A stretch of DNA of 64,000 nucleotides. Source: Halodesulfovibrio sp. GTDB lineage: Bacteria > Desulfobacterota > Desulfovibrionia > Desulfovibrionales > Desulfovibrionaceae. The notes below the pieces were generated by a model. That model saw only the letters and a program-made list of their open reading frames with translations, did not search any database and was not told the DNA's origin. Below, one piece after another: positions 20,263-43,305 of this stretch. The stretch spans positions 62,001 through 126,000 of the forward strand of contig NZ_JADMLB010000066.1 in NCBI RefSeq assembly GCF_015482765.1. The letters are read 5' to 3'. The translations under genes and the position numbers were made by a program. Positions within the stretch are counted from its first letter, which is position 1. Each line of letters begins with the position of its first letter.

Positions 20263-20286
20263 ATGATTGCAACGCTAGCGAAGTAG

Positions 20287-20431
20287 AAAAACAGAAAACC
20301 CCTTCTGGTGAGGAAGGGGTTTCGAAGAGCGTTTCATAAAGAAATTTATGATATTCGATACCTGCTAGTGGTGGTGGAGCAGTGATGCAAGCGGAAACGC
20401 ATCGCGTATCTCGATTGATTGCTCAATCAAT
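20287..20431 (-). ncRNA. Candidate small RNA, copy 1 of a two-member family
   Basis: Predicted ~145-nt leftward transcript with no open frame. From 5' to 3' it has the 18-nt palindrome, then a three-way junction closed by GAUAC/GUAUC that holds hairpins GAUGC-[GUUUCCGCUU]-GCAUC and CUGCU-[CCACCACCACU]-AGCAG. Next come an A/U hairpin (UCAUAAA-UUUC-UUUAUGA), the linker AACGCUCUUC, and a terminator with stem AAACCCCUUC/GAAGGGGUUU and loop CUCACCA before UCUGUUUUU. Copy 2 at 39540-39696 keeps the fold, loops and linker while the stem sequences change. C-rich loops suggest pairing with G-rich Shine-Dalgarno-like sites. It sits between PilZ and the FAD oxidoreductase genes, each with its own terminator. 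Not recognised as a known family. Confidence 0.75.
20414..20431. promoter_or_regulatory. 18-bp palindromic operator at +1 of small RNA copy 1
   Basis: ATTGATTG-CT-CAATCAAT, a perfect dyad starting 7 nt after the predicted -10. The identical 18-mer is at 39679-39696; variants are at 40262-40277 and 43290-43305. Its position over the start site suggests repressor control. The spacer of 6 between TTGAT and ATCAA does not fit an FNR box (4). Confidence 0.75.
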
Positions 20432-20438
20432 GAGAAAA

Positions 20439-20467
20439 AATGTAGTCCTTCATCTTAAAGCTGTCAA
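20439..20467 (-). promoter_or_regulatory. Sigma-70 promoter of small RNA copy 1
   Basis: On the minus strand: TTGACA, 17 nt, TACATT. The -35 is a perfect consensus. Confidence 0.7.
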
Positions 20468-23626: not shown

Positions 23627-25366
23627 TTACGAAAGATCGTGGCTCACTTCAACCAGCCCGATTCTGTAACGTTGTGCTTTTCGAACAATTGTAGATTGGC
23701 TTGTGCCCAGCAACTTAGCAGCCTTGTATGTGCTTTTTCCTTCAATCAAGGCTTGCTTGATGAGTTTGCGTTCAAGGTTTTCCACTTCATCTTTCATGTT
23801 AATGTGTGTGGCACTGGAAATTATAGCGCTTCCGTCTTCACTGCCGGAAAGGAAGTGAGGAGGAAGGTAGTCTGGAGTAATTAAATCCTGATCGCTCATA
23901 GCAACAAGGTAGTCAACTGCTGCTCGTAATTCACGAACGTTACCCGGCCAACTGTTTTGTGAAAGAATTGAGAGCAGGTCTGGCGAGAGTGTTTTTCGTA
24001 AGTTGTATTTCAGATTCGCTGTGGTGAGGAAGTGTTGAACAAGGAGTGGAATATCTTCAGCACGCTCGCGAAGTGGAGGAATAGAAACAATAAGAACTCG
24101 CAAACGATAGTAGAGGTCTTCACGGAATTTACCGGAAGCAAGAAGCTGGTCGAAAGATTTGTTTGTTGCGGCAATGATACGCACATTTGGTTTTAGCTGC
24201 GATGTCCCCCCGACTTTTCGGTATCCATCCCCATCAAGAACGTGCAGAAGTTTTACCTGCATGAGCAATGGAAGCTCGGCAACCTCATCTAGAAAGAGGG
24301 TTCCGCCATCAGCAAGCTCGAACATACCTGCTTTGCCTTTGTCTGATGCACCGGAAAATGCCCCCGGTTCATAACCGAATAATTCAGCTTCAAGAAGTTC
24401 GCTAGGAATCGCACCGCAGTTGATGGAGATAAACGGACCTTCACCTCGACCGCTCTGTTTATGAATGGTGCCGGCGGTGAGTGTTTTACCTGTACCGGTC
24501 TCACCTAACAGTAAAACAGGGGCATCCACTTGAGCAGCTCGTTGGATGTCCTGTGAAAGTTGCAGCATAGCAGGGCTGTTTCCAAGCACACCTTCTGCCT
24601 GTCCTTTTTCCAGTGTCTTTAATTTGTCTTTATATACCTGAGCTTCCAACTCATACTTACTAAGTTTTGTCTGTAATGTTTTCAATTCACTGATATCACG
24701 AATACACGCAATGGCTCGCCATGCTTCACCATTGGCATCAAAGATAGGTGTACTTGTGTTCAGACAACGTACGCCGTTGCTGTAGTCATCAAACATTGTT
24801 ACAGAGTGTCCTGCTTCAAGAGCTCGCAGCGTTACACATGTTGTTGTGTAGCCCATTTCAACCGCTTCTGAAACGTGTTTCCCAATTACTCCCTCAGCTT
24901 TAATACCGGCAATACGCTCCATAGCCTTGTTAACACGCTGAGTTATGCCGTCTCCATCAATTACCCATATACCATCGTGCATGGATTCAAAAAGAACATC
25001 GAGTTCTTCTTTATGGAGTGCGGCGTTTTGAAAGCTTTCATCATTAATACTGTAGACCGTTACTGACCTGAACTCTGTAGCTTCGTTGATCCAGTGCCAG
25101 GTGACACAGTAACTAACACTTTGAATTTTCACAAAAACAGTAGCCCCTTCGGGCATGTTTTGAAGTTGTAAGGCATCAGCAGGAAGAGCATATTCCTGAA
25201 TGTGATGCAAGAATGACTTAGGGCTGTCCGCTTGTGAAAAAATGGGGAAAAGTGTGCAGAGGTTGTTGGTATAGTCCTCTATAACCCACTCTTTTCCTTT
25301 ACAAAGTACGGTTGAGAAAAAATTCTCATTTGCGGAATCTGATGTTATAGTTCGATTAGTTGGCAT
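23627..25366 (-). CDS. Sigma-54-dependent activator with PAS domain (probable taurine-cluster regulator)
   Basis: A 579-residue enhancer-binding protein. An unassigned N-terminal sensor region (about 1-120) is followed by a PAS domain (FESMHDGIWVIDGDGITQRV...), an AAA+ domain with GETGTGKT (Walker A), GAFSGAS (the sigma-54 contact loop, usually GAFTGA) and GGTLFLDEV (Walker B), and a Fis-type helix-turn-helix (AAKLLGTSQSTIVRKAQRY). It is divergent from the taurine operon, whose promoter is a near-perfect -24/-12 site. Start chosen at MPTNRT because AAGGA lies just before it; the ATG 27 nt upstream has no ribosome site. Confidence 0.92.
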   Translation of the reverse strand: MPTNRTITSDSANENFFSTVLCKGKEWVIEDYTNNLCTLFPIFSQADSPKSFLHHIQEYALPADALQLQNMPEGATVFVKIQSVSYCVTWHWINEATEFRSVTVYSINDESFQNAALHKEELDVLFESMHDGIWVIDGDGITQRVNKAMERIAGIKAEGVIGKHVSEAVEMGYTTTCVTLRALEAGHSVTMFDDYSNGVRCLNTSTPIFDANGEAWRAIACIRDISELKTLQTKLSKYELEAQVYKDKLKTLEKGQAEGVLGNSPAMLQLSQDIQRAAQVDAPVLLLGETGTGKTLTAGTIHKQSGRGEGPFISINCGAIPSELLEAELFGYEPGAFSGASDKGKAGMFELADGGTLFLDEVAELPLLMQVKLLHVLDGDGYRKVGGTSQLKPNVRIIAATNKSFDQLLASGKFREDLYYRLRVLIVSIPPLRERAEDIPLLVQHFLTTANLKYNLRKTLSPDLLSILSQNSWPGNVRELRAAVDYLVAMSDQDLITPDYLPPHFLSGSEDGSAIISSATHINMKDEVENLERKLIKQALIEGKSTYKAAKLLGTSQSTIVRKAQRYRIGLVEVSHDLS

Positions 25367-25451
25367 AGCTTCCTTCGCTTGATGATAATTCATTTCTGAA
25401 TCGTTTTTTCAGAAAATCTACACTTCTCATTAAGTTTTTTTTAAAAGCAAT

Positions 25452-25466
25452 GCAAGAATGACTTGC
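25452..25466. promoter_or_regulatory. Candidate activator-binding dyad
   Basis: GCAAG-AATGA-CTTGC, a perfect short inverted repeat about 73 bp upstream of the -24 box, at a usual distance for a sigma-54 enhancer. Confidence 0.45.
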
Positions 25467-25538
25467 TCGTTAGTTTGGATTCATTGGGCGAACAATAAAA
25501 ACCCTTATAAAGCATGAGGTTGCGTAAAATGTGATAAT

Positions 25539-25553
25539 TGGCACAAGGCTTGC
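25539..25553 (+). promoter_or_regulatory. Sigma-54 promoter of the taurine operon
   Basis: TGGCAC-AAGGC-TTGC with T following: matches the -24/-12 consensus throughout, with the correct GG-to-GC spacing. Transcription should start near 25565, leaving a leader of about 135 nt before the permease ATG. Confidence 0.9.
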
Positions 25554-25592
25554 TGTTAGATTGGTGTTGCAAAGCAGTAGAATGAACTTCGT

Positions 25593-25608
25593 GGGACAGG
25601 TTACATAC
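25593..25608. repeat. 16-bp element shared in inverted form with the second permease leader
   Basis: GGGACAGGTTACATAC lies in the predicted leader of the first permease; its exact reverse complement GTATGTAACCTGTCCC is at 44087-44102 before the paralogous permease. Confidence 0.6.
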
Positions 25609-25699
25609 TACTCATTGGTTTGGCGTTTTTATTGACGCTAAAAAAACGAGATTACTGCGACTATTATGTCGCGAAAGGTTTTGGAGGGCATTTAGCTTT

Positions 25700-27145
25700 A
25701 TGGCTGAGACACAGACTACGTTAAAAAAGACGATTAAGCCTAGTCAGGCTTGGGCGTTAGCGCTTGGCGCTATTTTGGGATGGGGCGCATTTGTATTGCC
25801 TGCACTGCGATTTCTGCCAACCGCGGGACCACTTGCTGCTTGCATAGGTTTCGCACTCGGTGGATGTATGCTTCTTTTTGTTGCCATGAGTTATGGTGAC
25901 ATGATTGGCAAATACCCAGTTGCTGGTGGCGAATTTGTATTTGCATATGTTGGATTCGGCCCGACAGCCGCATTTATCTGTGGTTGGGCATTAGCGCTCG
26001 GTTATATTTGTATTATTGCACTTAACGCGTCAGCGCTTGCGCTGCTCTTTAGATTCCTCTTACCAGGGGTATTTGAAGTAGGTTATCTGTACACAATCGT
26101 TGGTTGGAAAGTGTACGCCGGTGAATTGGCAATGCTTATTGCTATTCTCGTTGGCTGTGGCTGGATCAACTACCGTGGTGCGGATCTTGTTGGTAAAATT
26201 CAGGTTTTCCTCGCGATTGCACTTGTAGGCGGTGTGTTTGCACTGTTCGCAGGTACAACAATGTACGAGACTTCCTCACTTTCCAACTTGTTCCCGCTGT
26301 ATGCAGAACACCGCAGTCCTTTGGCATCTATCATGGCTATCGTAGCAATTGCCCCTTGGCTCTACGTTGGTTTTGATACCATTCCACAGGCTGCTGAAGA
26401 ATTTGATTTTCCGCATGAGATGGCAACAAAGCTTATGATTACCGCGATTATGTGTGGTGTTGTTCTCTACGCAATGGTTACTCTCGCAGTCGCCGGTCTC
26501 ATGCCTTATAAAGAACTTTTGGCAATGGATGTACCTTGGGCTACTGGCCACGTTGCTCACCTGTCATTGGGCAGAGCAGGTAGTGTGATTCTCGCAATCG
26601 CAGTGTCAGCAGCTATCTTCACAGGAATTAACGGTTTCTTCATCGCATCTTCCCGTCTGCTTTTCAGCATCGGTCGCGCAAGAATCCTTCCTTCCTGGTT
26701 CGGTGATATTCATCCAAAATACGGTACCCCGCACAAGTCAATTGTGTTTGTAACCCTGCTTACCATTATCGCACCGTTCTTCGGTCGTGAGGTACTGAAC
26801 TGGGTAGTAGATATGTCTGCTGTTGGTACTGTTATTGGTTACCTCTTTACTTGCATGGCTGCATACAAAGTTGCTGTAGCGTTCCGCAGTGAAGAGAAAA
26901 CCTCTAAAAAGATTATATTTGCGGCGATCGGCTCAGTGAGCTCCGTAATTTGTATCCTTCTTCTTACCGTTCCTGGTTCCCCTGGTTCCATCGGTACAGA
27001 ATCTTGGATCGCTTTAGTTCTCTGGACTTTGCTCGGCGCGTTTTTCTACAAATTGAAAATGGGTGAATTCAAAGGCCTTGATCTTAAGACTCAGCGTTCA
27101 CTGATGATGGGCGGCATTGACCTCCCAGTCTTCTTCAAAAAATAG
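25700..27145 (+). CDS. APC-superfamily amino-acid permease (first copy)
   Basis: A 481-residue polytopic protein with about 12 membrane helices and the APC pattern: QAWALALGAILGWGAFVLPALRF near the start and IAPWLYVGFDTIPQAAEEF in the middle. As first gene of the taurine operon it is the likely importer of taurine or of a related amino acid such as alanine; this is inference from position. A paralogue at 44196-45656 is close to identical over long stretches (for example ILGWGAFVLPALRFLP and FEVGYLYTIVGWKVYAGEL). Confidence 0.88.
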   Translation: MAETQTTLKKTIKPSQAWALALGAILGWGAFVLPALRFLPTAGPLAACIGFALGGCMLLFVAMSYGDMIGKYPVAGGEFVFAYVGFGPTAAFICGWALALGYICIIALNASALALLFRFLLPGVFEVGYLYTIVGWKVYAGELAMLIAILVGCGWINYRGADLVGKIQVFLAIALVGGVFALFAGTTMYETSSLSNLFPLYAEHRSPLASIMAIVAIAPWLYVGFDTIPQAAEEFDFPHEMATKLMITAIMCGVVLYAMVTLAVAGLMPYKELLAMDVPWATGHVAHLSLGRAGSVILAIAVSAAIFTGINGFFIASSRLLFSIGRARILPSWFGDIHPKYGTPHKSIVFVTLLTIIAPFFGREVLNWVVDMSAVGTVIGYLFTCMAAYKVAVAFRSEEKTSKKIIFAAIGSVSSVICILLLTVPGSPGSIGTESWIALVLWTLLGAFFYKLKMGEFKGLDLKTQRSLMMGGIDLPVFFKK

Positions 27146-27193
27146 AAGAAGCTTAATTTTAAGGTACTAAACAAATAAAAAGGATAGAAAGTG

Positions 27194-28345
27194 ATGCATC
27201 ACACATTCCATTCAGTAAGCAAAACTGTACACGGCGTAGGTTCTATTGCACAGGCTGGCGAAGAAGTTAAAAACCTCGGTGGCGAGCGTGCAATTATCGT
27301 AACTGACCCGGGTCTTGCTTCTCTCGGCTTGCACAAGCCAGTAGAAGAGGCTCTTAAGTCTGCAAACGTTGAGTTCGTTCTCTACGCAAAAGCAGAGCTC
27401 GAGCCAAATGCTGACTCTATCCAGGATTGCGCCAACGCAGCAACCGAATTCAAAGCTGACGTAATCATCGGCTTCGGTGGCGGTAGTGCACTCGATACTG
27501 CAAAAGCAGCTTCTGTTCTTGCAGCACATGAAGGTCCTATCTCCAAGTACTTCGGCGTAAACGTTGTTCCTGGTCCATGTATGCCAATGATCGCAGTTCC
27601 AACAACTGCGGGTACTGGTTCTGAAATGACTTCCATTTCTGTACTGACCAACAACGAAACTGGTGCGAAAATGGGTGTTGTAAGTGATTACCTGTACGCT
27701 GATGCTGTAATCCTCGATCCAGCAATCACTACCGGTCTTCCAGCTCACGTTACCGCAATGACTGGTGTAGACGCATTTGTTCACGCTATGGAATCTTTCG
27801 TAGGTCTGCGTGCTACTCCATTTACCGATGCTCAGAACCTTGCAGCAATGAAACTTATCGCTGCAAACATTCGTAAAGCATACACAAACGGTTCTAACCT
27901 CGAAGCACGTGAAGCAATGCTTTACGGTTCCGCTCTCGCAGGTCTCGGCTTCGGTAACACTCAGAACGGTGTTATCCACGCAGTAGGTACTTCTGTTCCT
28001 GCAAAATACAAACTCCCTCACGGCCTCCTGATGGCATGTTTCGCTCCTGTAGGTATTAGCTTTAACTACATGGCTAACCCAGAGAAATATGCAATCGTAG
28101 CAGACATCCTGAACGGCGAAGACACTTGTGGTCCTGTTCTGGAACGTGCTGAAGGTTGTGCAGATGCATTCATCGCAATGCTCGAAGACCTCGACATTAA
28201 AGTTGGTCTCGCTCCTTACGGTGTGCAGGAATCTGATCTCGAAGGCATCGCAACTCGTGCAATGGCAGCGAAACGTCTCATGGACAACAACCCGCGTCAG
28301 TGTACTGAGAAGCAGCTTCTCGACCACTTGCAGAAAACATTTTAG
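27194..28345 (+). CDS. sarD: Iron-containing alcohol dehydrogenase, probable sulfoacetaldehyde reductase
   Basis: A 383-residue group III (iron-dependent) alcohol dehydrogenase. NAD-binding GFGGGSALDTAKA and the metal-binding residues are visible: Asp in LYADAVILDP, and His in TGVDAFVHAMES, GVIHAVGTS and LPHGLLMA. In Bilophila wadsworthia the enzyme encoded with Tpa and Ald reduces sulfoacetaldehyde to isethionate with NADH, and the same gene set here supports that role. ATG at 27194 is favoured over the adjacent GTG at 27191. Codon use is strongly biased, as in highly expressed genes. Confidence 0.82.
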   Translation: MHHTFHSVSKTVHGVGSIAQAGEEVKNLGGERAIIVTDPGLASLGLHKPVEEALKSANVEFVLYAKAELEPNADSIQDCANAATEFKADVIIGFGGGSALDTAKAASVLAAHEGPISKYFGVNVVPGPCMPMIAVPTTAGTGSEMTSISVLTNNETGAKMGVVSDYLYADAVILDPAITTGLPAHVTAMTGVDAFVHAMESFVGLRATPFTDAQNLAAMKLIAANIRKAYTNGSNLEAREAMLYGSALAGLGFGNTQNGVIHAVGTSVPAKYKLPHGLLMACFAPVGISFNYMANPEKYAIVADILNGEDTCGPVLERAEGCADAFIAMLEDLDIKVGLAPYGVQESDLEGIATRAMAAKRLMDNNPRQCTEKQLLDHLQKTF

Positions 28346-28350
28346 CGCAT

Positions 28351-28409
28351 AGGGGTCCCCTTAGCAGCGCCGGAGCCGTTATCACCGTCGCGACTAAGGG
28401 GTTCCCCCT
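28351..28409 (+). other. Strong intercistronic hairpin between sarD and tpa
   Basis: AGGGG-T-CCCCTTAG pairs with CTAAGGGG-TT-CCCCT around a 30-nt loop. No T-run follows, so it may act in RNA processing or stability and not as a full terminator. Confidence 0.55.
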
Positions 28410-28466
28410 CCTAAAGTGTCTTGATATTTTGTTTAATTATCTTTGATATAGTAGAAGGGTAAAAAA

Positions 28467-29843
28467 ATGAGCAATGTAGATTTAAAAAAAGTAGTACAGC
28501 AAGATAAAGAAAACTGTTGGCACCACCTTACACAGCATAAAGCATACGATGGTGATGCAAACCCAATGGTTGTTGTAGAAGGTAACGGCATGCGCATCAA
28601 AGACGCAAACGGCAAAGAATTCCTCGATGCTGTTTCCGGTGGCGTATGGACAGTTAACGTTGGCTACGGCCGTGAAGAAATCGCTAAAGCTGTATACGAC
28701 CAGCTCGTAAAGCTTTGTTACTTCGCAGGTTCTGCTGGTAGCATTCCTGGTGCACAGTTTGCAGAAGCTCTTCTCGACAAAATGCCTGGCATGGGTCGAG
28801 TTTACTACTCTAACTCCGGTTCTGAAGCTAACGAAAAAGCATACAAAATCGTTCGTCAGCTTGCTCACCTCAAAGGTGACGGTTCCAAACACAAAATTAT
28901 CTTCCGTGACCGCGATTACCACGGTACTACCATTGGTGCACTTTCCTCCACTGGTCAGTTCGAGCGTAAAAACCAGTACGGTCCTTTCGCTCCAGGTTTC
29001 GTAGAGCTCTCTCACTGCAACTGTTACCGTTGTCCTTTCGGTAAAGAATACGGCAGCTGTGACATTGAATGTGCTCACGCTCTCGAAACTCTCATTCAGA
29101 ACGAAGGTCCTGAAAACGTTGGCGGCGTAATTCTCGAGCCAATCACTGCTGGTGGCGGCGTAATCGTACCTGTTCCTGAGTACTTCCCAATCATTCGCGA
29201 AATCTGTGACCGTCACGACGTTCTTCTTCACATCGACGAAGTTGTTTGTGGTCTCGGCCGTACAGGTAAATGGTTCGGTTACCAGCACTTTGACTTCACC
29301 CCAGACATGGTAACCATGGCTAAAGGTGTTGCATCTGGTTACGCAGGTATTTCCTGTACCGTAACTACTGAAAAAGTTTTCGACCAGTTTAAAGCTGATC
29401 CTTCCGATCGCATGCACTACTTCCGCGATATCTCCACTTTCGGTGGTTGTACCGCAGGTCCAGCTGCTGCTCTTGCTAACATGGACATCATCGTTCGCGA
29501 AAACCTTCTCGAAAACGTTGTTACCATGGGCGACTACTTCCAGGATCGTCTCTTTGAACTGAAAGACAAGTACTCCATCATCGGCGACGTTCGTGGTAAA
29601 GGTCTCTTCCAGGGTCTCGAACTCGTTAAAGACCGTGCTACTAAAGAGCCTGTTGATGAATCTGTTGCAGCTGGTGTTGCTGGTGGTTGTGCTAAAGAAG
29701 GCGTTATCATCGGTCGTACTAACCGCTCCTTCAAAGAGTTCAACAACACTCTTTGCTTCAGCCCTGCACTGATCGCTGGTAAATCTGAAATTGATGAAAT
29801 CATTGATGCACTCGACAAGTCTTTTGCATCTGTTTCTGCATAG
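28467..29843 (+). CDS. tpa: Taurine:pyruvate aminotransferase
   Basis: A 458-residue class III PLP aminotransferase. The PLP lysine is K286 in MVTMAKGVASGYAG, with the cofactor-binding Asp at 257 (LLHIDEVVCGLGRTG). It transfers the amino group of taurine to pyruvate, giving sulfoacetaldehyde and alanine. Length and overall sequence agree with the Bilophila enzyme as I remember it, and the neighbours sarD and ald supply the next step and pyruvate recycling. Other class III enzymes (omega-amino acid transaminases) are the alternative. Cysteine-rich CNCYRCPFGKEYGSCDIEC (residues 184-202) is a notable insertion. Confidence 0.85.
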   Translation: MSNVDLKKVVQQDKENCWHHLTQHKAYDGDANPMVVVEGNGMRIKDANGKEFLDAVSGGVWTVNVGYGREEIAKAVYDQLVKLCYFAGSAGSIPGAQFAEALLDKMPGMGRVYYSNSGSEANEKAYKIVRQLAHLKGDGSKHKIIFRDRDYHGTTIGALSSTGQFERKNQYGPFAPGFVELSHCNCYRCPFGKEYGSCDIECAHALETLIQNEGPENVGGVILEPITAGGGVIVPVPEYFPIIREICDRHDVLLHIDEVVCGLGRTGKWFGYQHFDFTPDMVTMAKGVASGYAGISCTVTTEKVFDQFKADPSDRMHYFRDISTFGGCTAGPAAALANMDIIVRENLLENVVTMGDYFQDRLFELKDKYSIIGDVRGKGLFQGLELVKDRATKEPVDESVAAGVAGGCAKEGVIIGRTNRSFKEFNNTLCFSPALIAGKSEIDEIIDALDKSFASVSA

Positions 29844-29876
29844 TAAAATAATTCGATATTCTTAGGAGATAAGACA

Positions 29877-30989
29877 ATGATCGTAGGCGTACTTAAAGAG
29901 ATTAAAGTTAAAGAAAACCGCGTTTGTATGACCCCTGCTGGCGTTACCACCATGGTAGCACACGGTCATGAAATCCTCGTTGAGAAAAACGCTGGTGTTG
30001 GTTCCGGTTTTTCTGATGAAGAATACGTAGCTGCTGGTGCAACTATCATCGATACTCCACAGGAAATCTGCGACAAAGCAGAAATGGTAATGCACGTTAA
30101 AGAACCTCAGCCTTCTGAATACGGCATGCTCCGTAAAGGCCAGATCCTCTTTACTTACCTCCACCTTGCTGCTGACGAGCCACAGACCAAAGGTCTTATC
30201 GAGTCTGGCGCAACTTGTATCGCATACGAAACCGTTCAGAAAGCTGACCGTTCCCTTCCACTTCTTACTCCTATGTCTGAAGTTGCTGGCCGTATGTCTA
30301 TCCAGCAGGGCGCAAAAGCTCTCGAATCCACCAACGGTGGCCTCGGTAAACTCCTCGGTGGCGTACCTGGTGTAGCACCAGCTAAAGTTATGGTTATCGG
30401 TGGCGGTGTTGTAGGTGTTCAGGCTGCTAAAATGGCTTGTGGCCTCGGCGCACAGGTTTACCTCATGGACATCAACCTTGATCGTCTCCGTTACCTCGAA
30501 GACGTAATGCCTGCTAACTGCACCACTCTCATGTCTTCTAAAGGCGCAATCCAGGCTCTTCTCCCAGAAATGGACCTCGTTGTAGGCGCAGTTCTCATTC
30601 CTGGTGCAAAAGCTCCTGCTGTTGTAACTCGTGAAGATCTCAAACTCATGAAAAAAGGCGCAGCTCTCGTTGACGTTGCTATCGACCAGGGTGGTTGCTT
30701 CGAAACTTCTAAAGCTACTACTCACGAAAACCCAACTTACGAAGTAGACGGCGTTGTTCACTACTGCGTAGCTAACATCCCTGGTGCAGTTCCAGCAACT
30801 TCCACCATGGCTCTTACTAACGCAACTCTTCCTTACGCTCTCGAGCTTGCTAACAAAGGTTGGAAAAAAGCTTGTCAGGAAAACGAAGAACTCAAACTCG
30901 GTCTCAACGTACACGAAGGTAAACTTACCTACAAAGCTGTTTGCGACGCATTCGGCCTTGAGTACACTCCAGTTGAAGACGTATTATAA
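29877..30989 (+). CDS. ald: Alanine dehydrogenase
   Basis: A 370-residue NAD-dependent enzyme that deaminates L-alanine to pyruvate and ammonia. The N-terminal MIVGVLKEIKVKENRVCMTPAGV, the KEPQPSEYGML and LFTYLHLAAD substrate-binding segments and VMVIGGGVVGVQAAKMA (NAD fold) are all present. In this operon it returns pyruvate to Tpa and yields NADH for SarD, making the taurine-to-isethionate conversion redox balanced. AGGAG precedes the ATG, 33 nt after tpa. Confidence 0.95.
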   Translation: MIVGVLKEIKVKENRVCMTPAGVTTMVAHGHEILVEKNAGVGSGFSDEEYVAAGATIIDTPQEICDKAEMVMHVKEPQPSEYGMLRKGQILFTYLHLAADEPQTKGLIESGATCIAYETVQKADRSLPLLTPMSEVAGRMSIQQGAKALESTNGGLGKLLGGVPGVAPAKVMVIGGGVVGVQAAKMACGLGAQVYLMDINLDRLRYLEDVMPANCTTLMSSKGAIQALLPEMDLVVGAVLIPGAKAPAVVTREDLKLMKKGAALVDVAIDQGGCFETSKATTHENPTYEVDGVVHYCVANIPGAVPATSTMALTNATLPYALELANKGWKKACQENEELKLGLNVHEGKLTYKAVCDAFGLEYTPVEDVL

Positions 30990-39539: not shown

Positions 39540-39696
39540 AAAAAGTGTGTGCCTCTCTTGGTGAGAGAGAGGCACACGTGAAGAGCGTTCTTATTCTAAA
39601 ATTTTTTTAGAAGGTACCTGCATGGATGGTGGTGCATAAAAGCAGCCTGCGGAATAGCTACTTCGGTACCCAGAACAAATTGATTGCTCAATCAAT
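39540..39696 (-). ncRNA. Candidate small RNA, copy 2 of a two-member family
   Basis: Predicted ~157-nt leftward transcript. It repeats the architecture of copy 1: palindrome at the 5' end; a three-way junction closed by GGUACC/GGUACC with hairpins GUAGC-[UAUUCCGCAG]-GCUGC and UGCA-[CCACCAUCCA]-UGCA; an A/U hairpin UUCUAAAA/UUUUAGAA; the linker AACGCUCUUC; and a perfect 12-bp terminator stem GUGUGCCUCUCU/AGAGAGGCACAC with the same CUCACCA loop, then ACUUUUUC. Nearly all stem positions differ from copy 1 while pairing is kept, so RNA structure is under selection. It lies between the TauE-like and lactate permease genes on the opposite strand. Confidence 0.75.
39679..39696. promoter_or_regulatory. 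18-bp palindromic operator at +1 of small RNA copy 2
   Basis: ATTGATTG-CT-CAATCAAT, identical to 20414-20431 and in the same place relative to the promoter. Confidence 0.75.
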
Positions 39697-39704
39697 ATGT
39701 GTCT

Positions 39705-39733
39705 TTTTTAAATATTCACGCTCTCTGTGTCAA
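39705..39733 (-). promoter_or_regulatory. Sigma-70 promoter of small RNA copy 2
   Basis: On the minus strand: TTGACA, 17 nt, TAAAAA, with the palindrome starting 8 nt later. Confidence 0.65.
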
Positions 39734-40054: not shown

Positions 40055-40261
40055 TAGTTGTATTTTGGGCTTCAAGTAGAGGTATAAGCAGTGATTTCAG
40101 GTGCGAGAGTGTAACTAAGAAGTTTTGCAAAGCGCACTCTAAAAATATCGGAGTCTGCTTTGTGATATGCGGAAAGCACATTTAAAAAGGCGGGTTTCGC
40201 TTTCGTAACGTGGAGTAGTAAAGGACTTTGCTAAAACTATACATCGTGGTAGTTCTTCAGG

Positions 40262-40277
40262 TTGATTGCTCAACCAG
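40262..40277. promoter_or_regulatory. Variant palindrome in the lactate permease leader
   Basis: TTGATTGCTCAACCAG agrees with the small-RNA operator at 14 of 16 positions. GGTTG...CAACC keeps local symmetry. It is about 185 bp upstream of the permease start. Confidence 0.55.
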
Positions 40278-40299
40278 TTTGAGCATCGACTCTGTGGGC

Positions 40300-40438
40300 C
40301 CTTATGCAAGACGTTGCCGTTTTTTGCATAACAAGGGTGGTGGACTGTCATACTGCCTGAGCTCTGGTACAGCCGGGCAGTATGACAGAGAGTTAGACAC
40401 ATGTAGGTAGCGTTCCGTTGGCCTGGTCTCTACCTACA
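40300..40438 (+). promoter_or_regulatory. Highly structured leader of the lactate permease mRNA
   Basis: Three strong hairpins: TTATGCAA/TTGCATAA (40302-40331), CTGTCATACTGCC/GGCAGTATGACAG (40345-40388) and TGTAGGTAG/CTACCTACA (40402-40438). The unpaired GGTGGTGGA between the first two (40336-40344) is perfectly complementary to the loop of small RNA copy 1. No T-run follows any of them. Confidence 0.6.
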
Positions 40439-40460
40439 CATACCTGAACTAGGACCTGTG

Positions 40461-43246: not shown

Positions 43247-43289
43247 GGTATTCCCTTTTGTTCCGCAAAAGAGGTTTACGTAAATTGTT

Positions 43290-43305
43290 TTGATTGAGCA
43301 ACCAA
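43290..43305. promoter_or_regulatory. Variant palindrome upstream of the small membrane protein
   Basis: TTGATTGAGCAACCAA, 15 of 16 matches to the small-RNA operator. Flanking ATTGTTT/AAACAAT extends the symmetry to 27 bp (43284-43310). On the minus strand a TTTACA/TATTGT promoter-like pair ends right before it. Confidence 0.65.

Follow-up and report, generated by a model that had tools for sequence, protein, structure and literature searches.

Sibling small RNAs that keep the same exposed motifs in paralogous copies within one genome are known from Qrr1-4 of Vibrio, which work with Hfq and sigma-54, and from RsmY/RsmZ of Pseudomonas, which carry repeated GGA loops; RepG, another small RNA, belongs to Helicobacter pylori, a host without Hfq. 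In the parts of the sources covered here, a loop of RepG pairs with a G-rich leader segment a fair distance upstream of the ribosome-binding site (PMC8295292), while sX13 of Xanthomonas combines stable stems with C-rich loops, has targets with G-rich motifs and can dispense with Hfq (PMC3771888). Here we report on a 64,000-nucleotide (nt) stretch of DNA from Halodesulfovibrio sp., a sulfate reducer of marine origin (contig NZ_JADMLB010000066.1, positions 62,001 to 126,000; hereafter the window) that carries two copies, a and b, of one structured small RNA, both on the minus strand. Copy b, at 39540-39733, had been described in an initial annotation, which gave no strand, as a member of a new small-RNA family with selected structure, and this description stood when homologues were added.

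Eleven copies in all were found in 6 of the 10 genomes of the same genus, and folding them singly gave one architecture, with a shifted hairpin A in copy a of genome G007. With its flanks, copy b had a fold-stability z-score of -6.28 (0 of 200 shuffles as stable) and copy a one of -4.12 (1 of 200); trimmed, each of the eleven gave a z-score between -3.8 and -7.4, again with 0 of 200 shuffles as stable. When the copies were aligned by fitting to R1, a model built from three a-copies, 27 of the 32 pairs changed on both sides and 97.1% of the 349 cells could pair, at an average identity between the two types of 52%; none of 500 shuffles reached this covariation, and slid registers gave 2-6 pairs. 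An alignment fitted to R1 leans toward the structure, and each type was hence re-aligned without it. The structure-free alignment of the six a-type copies had changes on both sides in 5 of 32 pairs, with 98.9% paired and a score that none of 500 shuffles equalled; that of the five b-type copies had them in 3 of 37 pairs, with 98.9% paired and a score reached by 10 of 500. A first combined alignment with misaligned stems (A2) and another with three chance rows (A5) were left out of these counts. The stems are supported on the fitted and the structure-free alignments alike, which points to a secondary structure conserved under selection, and we regard the existence of the small-RNA family as almost certain.

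The compensating differences first noticed between the two window copies are present in their folds and alignment: the outer stem GGUACC/GGUACC is replaced by GAUAC/GUAUC and the hairpin GUAGC/GCUGC by GAUGC/GCAUC with pairing kept, and the different terminator stems both pair, with 12 base pairs (bp) in copy b and 11 pairs in copy a. The segments UUCCGC, CCACCA, AACGCUCUUC and CUCACCA, which had been called unchanged, are indeed identical between these two copies; over all eleven this is true only in part, UUCCGC, CCACCA, AACGCUCUU and a CACC after the linker being found in every copy, whereas AACGCUCUUC is found in 10 and CUCACCA in 7. The linker of genome G001 ends AACGCUCUUG, and the changed base may join the terminator stem.

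The stretch 39540-39733 takes in the promoter and RNA of copy b, from TTGACA at 39733 to the end of the T-run at 39540, and the parts follow one another in the order TTGACA, weak -10, palindrome, three-way junction, hairpin C, linker and terminator (Table 1). Both window copies have the palindrome TTGRTTGAGCAAYCAA at the predicted start, together with TTGACA and an intrinsic terminator. A consensus promoter scan misses the promoter of copy b, with its weak -10 TAAAAA; it is called because its position is conserved across copies, TTGACA-17-TA being constant in all eleven. Both copies are intergenic and each has a putative promoter and an intrinsic terminator of its own, which is consistent with stand-alone small RNAs.

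Table 1. Predicted features of the two small RNAs and their candidate targets in the window.
Feature	Positions	Strand	Remarks
Small RNA copy b	39540..39697	-	Predicted transcript, from palindrome start to terminator T-run
Promoter, copy b	39705..39733	-	TTGACA 39733-39728, 17 nt, TAAAAA 39710-39705
Palindrome ATTGATTGAGCAATCAAT, copy b	39679..39696	-	Probable operator at predicted start
Three-way junction, copy b	39613..39670	-	Outer stem GGUACC 39670-39665 / 39618-39613 around hairpins A and B
Loop A motif UUCCGC, copy b	39649..39654	-	
Loop B motif CACCACCA, copy b	39627..39634	-	Contains CCACCA; best match to permease leader
A/U-rich hairpin C, copy b	39594..39612	-	
Linker AACGCUCUUC, copy b	39580..39589	-	
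Intrinsic terminator, copy b	39540..39577	-	Stem of 12 bp, loop CUCACCA, T-run; 1 terminator detected against a shuffle mean of 0.2
Small RNA copy a (sister)	about 20285..20432	-	Same part order as copy b; TTGACA at 20467
Promoter, copy a	20439..20467	-	TTGACA, 17 nt, TACATT; 10 of 12 consensus matches, found by scan
Palindrome ATTGATTGAGCAATCAAT, copy a	20414..20431	-	
Intrinsic terminator, copy a	20295..20323	-	Loop CUCACCA
Lactate permease gene leader	40261..40457	+	Candidate target; starts at palindrome copy 40261-40278
GGUGGUGGA in permease leader	40336..40344	+	Complement of loop B; in 4 of 5 genomes GGUGGA (40339-40344) is predicted to be unpaired
Open reading frame of 51 amino acids	43094..43246	-	Candidate target of loop A; palindrome at promoter 43290-43305

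R1, searched over 59 genomes, found a-copies in six of them (G000, G001, G004, G007, G008 and G009) and recovered all five b-copies at E values of 3e-7 to 4e-11. R2, a model of four b-copies searched over 37 genomes, found b-copies in five (G000, G004, G007, G008 and G009) and recovered all six a-copies at 5e-8 to 1e-10. One of the bearers, G008, is Halodesulfovibrio spirochaetisodalis. A three-motif pattern matched 5 of 39 genomes, all in the genus of the window. Searching 288 genomes of the family with R3, a model of all eleven copies, returned the same six genomes and the same eleven copies; no copy appeared in the other 282, under stricter filters and with 12 scored candidates per genome, settings at which diverged copies could be missed. 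Across 84,980 species, a set that may omit records near the genome of the window, the motif pattern gave 11 matches, two of them this RNA and both in H. spirochaetisodalis. The other nine, outside the genus, and all five matches in viral contigs have neither the fold nor the palindrome and are put down to chance. No match to the small RNA was found in phage or plasmid records, which speaks against a mobile origin. R1 also matched weakly in seven further genomes and at a second place in G009; the five loci read (L029, L030, L031, L032 and L037) were free of the motifs, and L033-L035 and 11 weak R2 matches lay outside that reading.

Neither of the two checks named in the initial annotation, on stem support among homologues and on the locus in sister species, refutes the family. 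The gene context is the same wherever the RNA occurs, copy a being flanked in 6 of 6 genomes by genes for a PilZ-domain protein and a flavin adenine dinucleotide (FAD) protein and copy b in 5 of 5 by those for a TauE-type permease and a lactate permease, although four of the ten same-genus genomes (G002, G003, G005 and G006) have neither copy. As far as searched, the family is restricted to one genus. In the single loci read, GC content was 62% in G002 and 58% in G006, against 42-45% in three RNA-bearing loci; these two genomes are labelled as the same genus though they have about 60% GC in one locus each and neither RNA.

Rfam release 15 at its gathering cut-off contained no family for the RNA, the sole match in the window being a transfer RNA. 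At relaxed thresholds nothing matched copy b, and the two matches of copy a fell far short of their cut-offs, the better one (rnk_pseudo) scoring 30 bits where 55 are required; a known Rfam family is rejected as the identity of the RNA on these scans. Literature searches turned up no study of these RNAs, nor any on small RNAs of the genus; the passages covered of a noncoding RNA survey in Oleidesulfovibrio do not mention them (PMC11124144).

The palindrome recurs, with few mismatches, before the lactate permease gene and at the 51-amino-acid open reading frame (51-aa ORF) in all five genomes that have copy b, each time a short but variable distance after a promoter-like -10. The pattern TTGRTTGNNCAAYCAA, allowing at most one mismatch, has 7-11 sites per genome in six genomes, whereas the reversed pattern has 0-3. 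Formate dehydrogenase genes have conserved sites next to them in G000, G001, G007, G008 and G009, as does a dsrM/dsrK cluster in G000, G001, G007 and G009, the gene names being taken from G000 proteins; G004 and G008 also have sites at the matching distance, where the sequence fell outside what was read. In G000 the sites C52:41827 and C45:73854 (L114 and L115) correspond to the formate dehydrogenase and dsrMK loci. This recurrence suggests a wider energy-metabolism regulon, and the palindrome is probably the shared operator of a repressor. Its reading as an RNA hairpin is disfavoured, as other promoters carry it too and its spacing from the -10 is not the same at every gene.

The gene next to copy b is identified as a lactate permease by TIGR00795 above its cut-off, and its leader contains AGGGTGGTGGACTG, invariant in 5 of 5 genomes. 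Loop B is C-rich and complementary to the G-rich segment GGUGGUGGA of this leader. In a ranking of 82 leader entries of G000, in which the permease is counted twice (81 leaders), the permease leader was the top entry for loop B whether taken from copy a (-17.0 kcal/mol) or from copy b (-16.6 kcal/mol), after opening costs of 1.3-1.5 kcal/mol. Shuffled permease leaders scored as well in 3-10 of 500 cases with copy a and 7-23 of 500 with copy b. Of 39 genomes, the five that have copy b are also the ones with the permease leader and the 51-aa ORF; the search for the leader gave one more weak match, in G018, within coding-like DNA. Pairing of loop B with the permease leader is, in our estimate, just short of probable. 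The last 150 nt of the leader are almost invariant in the five genomes and include a strong central hairpin without an Rfam match; the leader is perhaps a cis-regulatory RNA itself.

Two further modules have candidate partners. GCGGAAC at 43260-43266 adjoins the Shine-Dalgarno of the 51-aa ORF and is complementary to loop A, within a leader, CTCTTTTGCGGAACAAAAGGG, that is invariant in five genomes; shuffled leaders scored as well against loop A in 3-7 of 500 cases (b) and 9-58 of 500 (a). The ORF itself is 86-92% identical in four other genomes, with a strongly conserved leader, and Pfam returned nothing for a longer frame. The exact 10-mer complement of the linker occurs at 22, 24, 19, 22 and 25 sites in five genomes (112 in total), compared with 15, 11, 12, 7 and 11 for the reversed-pattern control. 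Ten of the 112 belong to the RNAs themselves. All 102 remaining sites were fetched, of which 100 fell into 14 cross-genome clusters, comprising one leader of an iron-containing alcohol dehydrogenase (Fe-ADH) gene, one terminator-like hairpin and 12 that look coding. Neither of the two unclustered sites (G004 C11 and C20:626006), both of which were read, is an Fe-ADH leader. The complement lies in the Fe-ADH leader of 3 of the 5 genomes (G000, G008 and G009), and in the predicted fold of G000 and G008 this leader forms a three-way junction with the 10-mer extending into a hairpin loop. The pairings of loop A with the 51-aa ORF and of the linker with Fe-ADH are doubtful; the odds of the proposed pairings were lowered a little because the permease site proved less open and the leader hairpins less certain. 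Seven further module-leader combinations, of ten in all, gave no signal, and the terminator loop CUCACCA had no target in the three leaders tested. The proposal that the conserved loops bind targets is plausible and now has candidate partners, though CUCACCA is less conserved than had been stated.

Some observations on these loci stand apart. The Fe-ADH leader (L162 1480-1620; L204 and L231) has conserved segments, with paired stems in G000 and G008, and no Rfam match; the Fe-ADH gene of G001 was not among the 42 stretches (767 kb) fetched. The terminator-like hairpin (L173, about 1480-1520, G000 C59:6983-7010; also L219) has arms made up of AACGCTCTTCAC, identical to the linker of G000 copy b, and its complement, and may reflect coincidence or an RNA sponge. 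In the window, 23627-30989 holds in a row genes for a sigma-54 activator, an amino-acid permease, an Fe-ADH, a class III aminotransferase and alanine dehydrogenase, which we take to resemble a taurine or alanine catabolic cluster.

Our best explanation, to which we grant a little less than an even chance, is that a and b are sister stand-alone small RNAs that would act in trans, without Hfq, through a hairpin loop and single-stranded segments that pair with structured mRNA leaders. Hfq (PF17209), the partner of Hfq-dependent small RNAs, was found in none of six genomes (five of the genus and one of another), in a search whose control gave hits in 5 of 14 known genomes. A common repressor acting on the palindrome at both RNAs, the lactate permease gene and the 51-aa ORF would cause all of them to be made together. 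Loop B (CCACCACC) would then pair with GGUGGUGGA, making its entry at the GGUGGA junction and pushing aside part of the first helix of the leader, with GGUGGUGG as its permease-leader counterpart; more weakly, GCGGAA next to the Shine-Dalgarno of the 51-aa ORF would be the partner of loop A, and the Fe-ADH leader that of the linker. Repression that damps electron-donor uptake and oxidation, an incoherent feed-forward loop, would be the most likely effect, although the sign is a guess. The matches of the exposed segments to control regions of genes for the uptake or oxidation of fuels such as lactate make both RNAs likely regulators. A more ambitious version, which we think unlikely, is a modular hub for electron-donor choice without Hfq, in which one fold in two copies would offer three pairing modules to one leader each, and one operator would be common to the RNAs, two targets (the permease and the 51-aa ORF) and the formate-dehydrogenase and dsrMK loci; its estimate was lowered slightly because of the check on leader-hairpin stability and site accessibility.

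Several results weigh against action through these leaders. The predicted permease-leader folds of G000, G004, G007 and G009 leave only GGUGGA of the site open (0.66-0.98 per base), with GGGU held in a helix, and the fold predicted for G008 pairs the site throughout (open at 0.2 or less). Given ten module-leader combinations, shuffle frequencies of about 1-5% carry limited weight. The co-occurrence of copy b, leader and ORF could also be explained by shared ancestry of one region. The 51-aa site ranks just 19 and 22 among the 82 entries, and the stability of the hairpin in its leader is matched by 22 of 200 shuffles. The Fe-ADH leader has a different predicted fold in G009, its site was chosen from 102 and its shuffle score of 1 of 500 is therefore biased, and no exact linker complement was found in an Fe-ADH-type leader of G004 or G007, where the orthologous leaders were not located. 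It is quite possible, if not what we favour, that the RNAs are real and trans-acting but have other mRNAs as main targets, the permease, 51-aa and Fe-ADH matches being coincidental or secondary; G001, where copy a is present but the permease leader and the 51-aa ORF are both missing, would fit this, as would the moderate pairing scores and the mere 81 leaders available for comparison. What speaks for the permease leader even so is that it carries the palindrome of the RNAs and ranks first with loop B from either copy.

Conserved segments amid rewritten stems would also fit protein recognition, and the RNAs might serve as a protein sponge or scaffold with these segments as binding sites, a reading compatible with the lack of Hfq, the only RNA-binding protein searched for. 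We consider it quite improbable, given that several segments have complements in leaders and that no repeated GGA is seen: five of the eleven copies have none, five have one and one has two, within or beside the terminator. The same counts reject a CsrA/RsmA sponge, in which repeated GGA motifs occupy hairpin loops. That the locus is no regulator at all, and that a micro-ORF, a repeat or chance retention of terminator hairpins would account for it, is very hard to credit. Short ATG ORFs do occur in 10 of the 11 copies, at one or both of two positions, but in the b-type copies the frames opened by the shared ATG have 13, 49, at least 100, 13 and 47 codons, lengths so erratic that the micro-ORF reading is ruled out; the promoter and terminator of the RNA, its covariation and the zero phage or plasmid matches argue against the remainder.

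Judged from the sequences compared, these RNAs form a new family confined to one genus; as regulators they are of a familiar type, their structure is clearly under selection, and their candidate targets can be tested. Strong covariation, invariant modules, a fixed gene context and named candidate targets open the way to direct tests of whether RNA controls lactate and alcohol metabolism without Hfq in sulfate reducers. Two copies with rewritten stems and mostly kept exposed segments also serve as a natural experiment that can show where in a small RNA selection acts. The family resembles sX13, as described in the parts of that source covered here, in its stable hairpins, its C-rich loops and its presumed independence of Hfq (PMC3771888). 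It has no Rfam relationship with sX13 and differs in occurring twice per genome, in forming a three-way junction, in starting at a palindrome and in having the loops CACCACCA and UUCCGC in place of CCCC runs. With RepG, to which it likewise has no Rfam relationship, it would share pairing of a loop with a leader far upstream (PMC8295292, as far as covered), but here the best match is made by a hairpin loop inside the RNA, and no target was found for the loop of the terminator. Unlike Qrr1-4 and RsmY/RsmZ, it comes with no Hfq found, a sigma-70-like promoter and few GGA; like these siblings, its paralogous copies keep the same exposed motifs.
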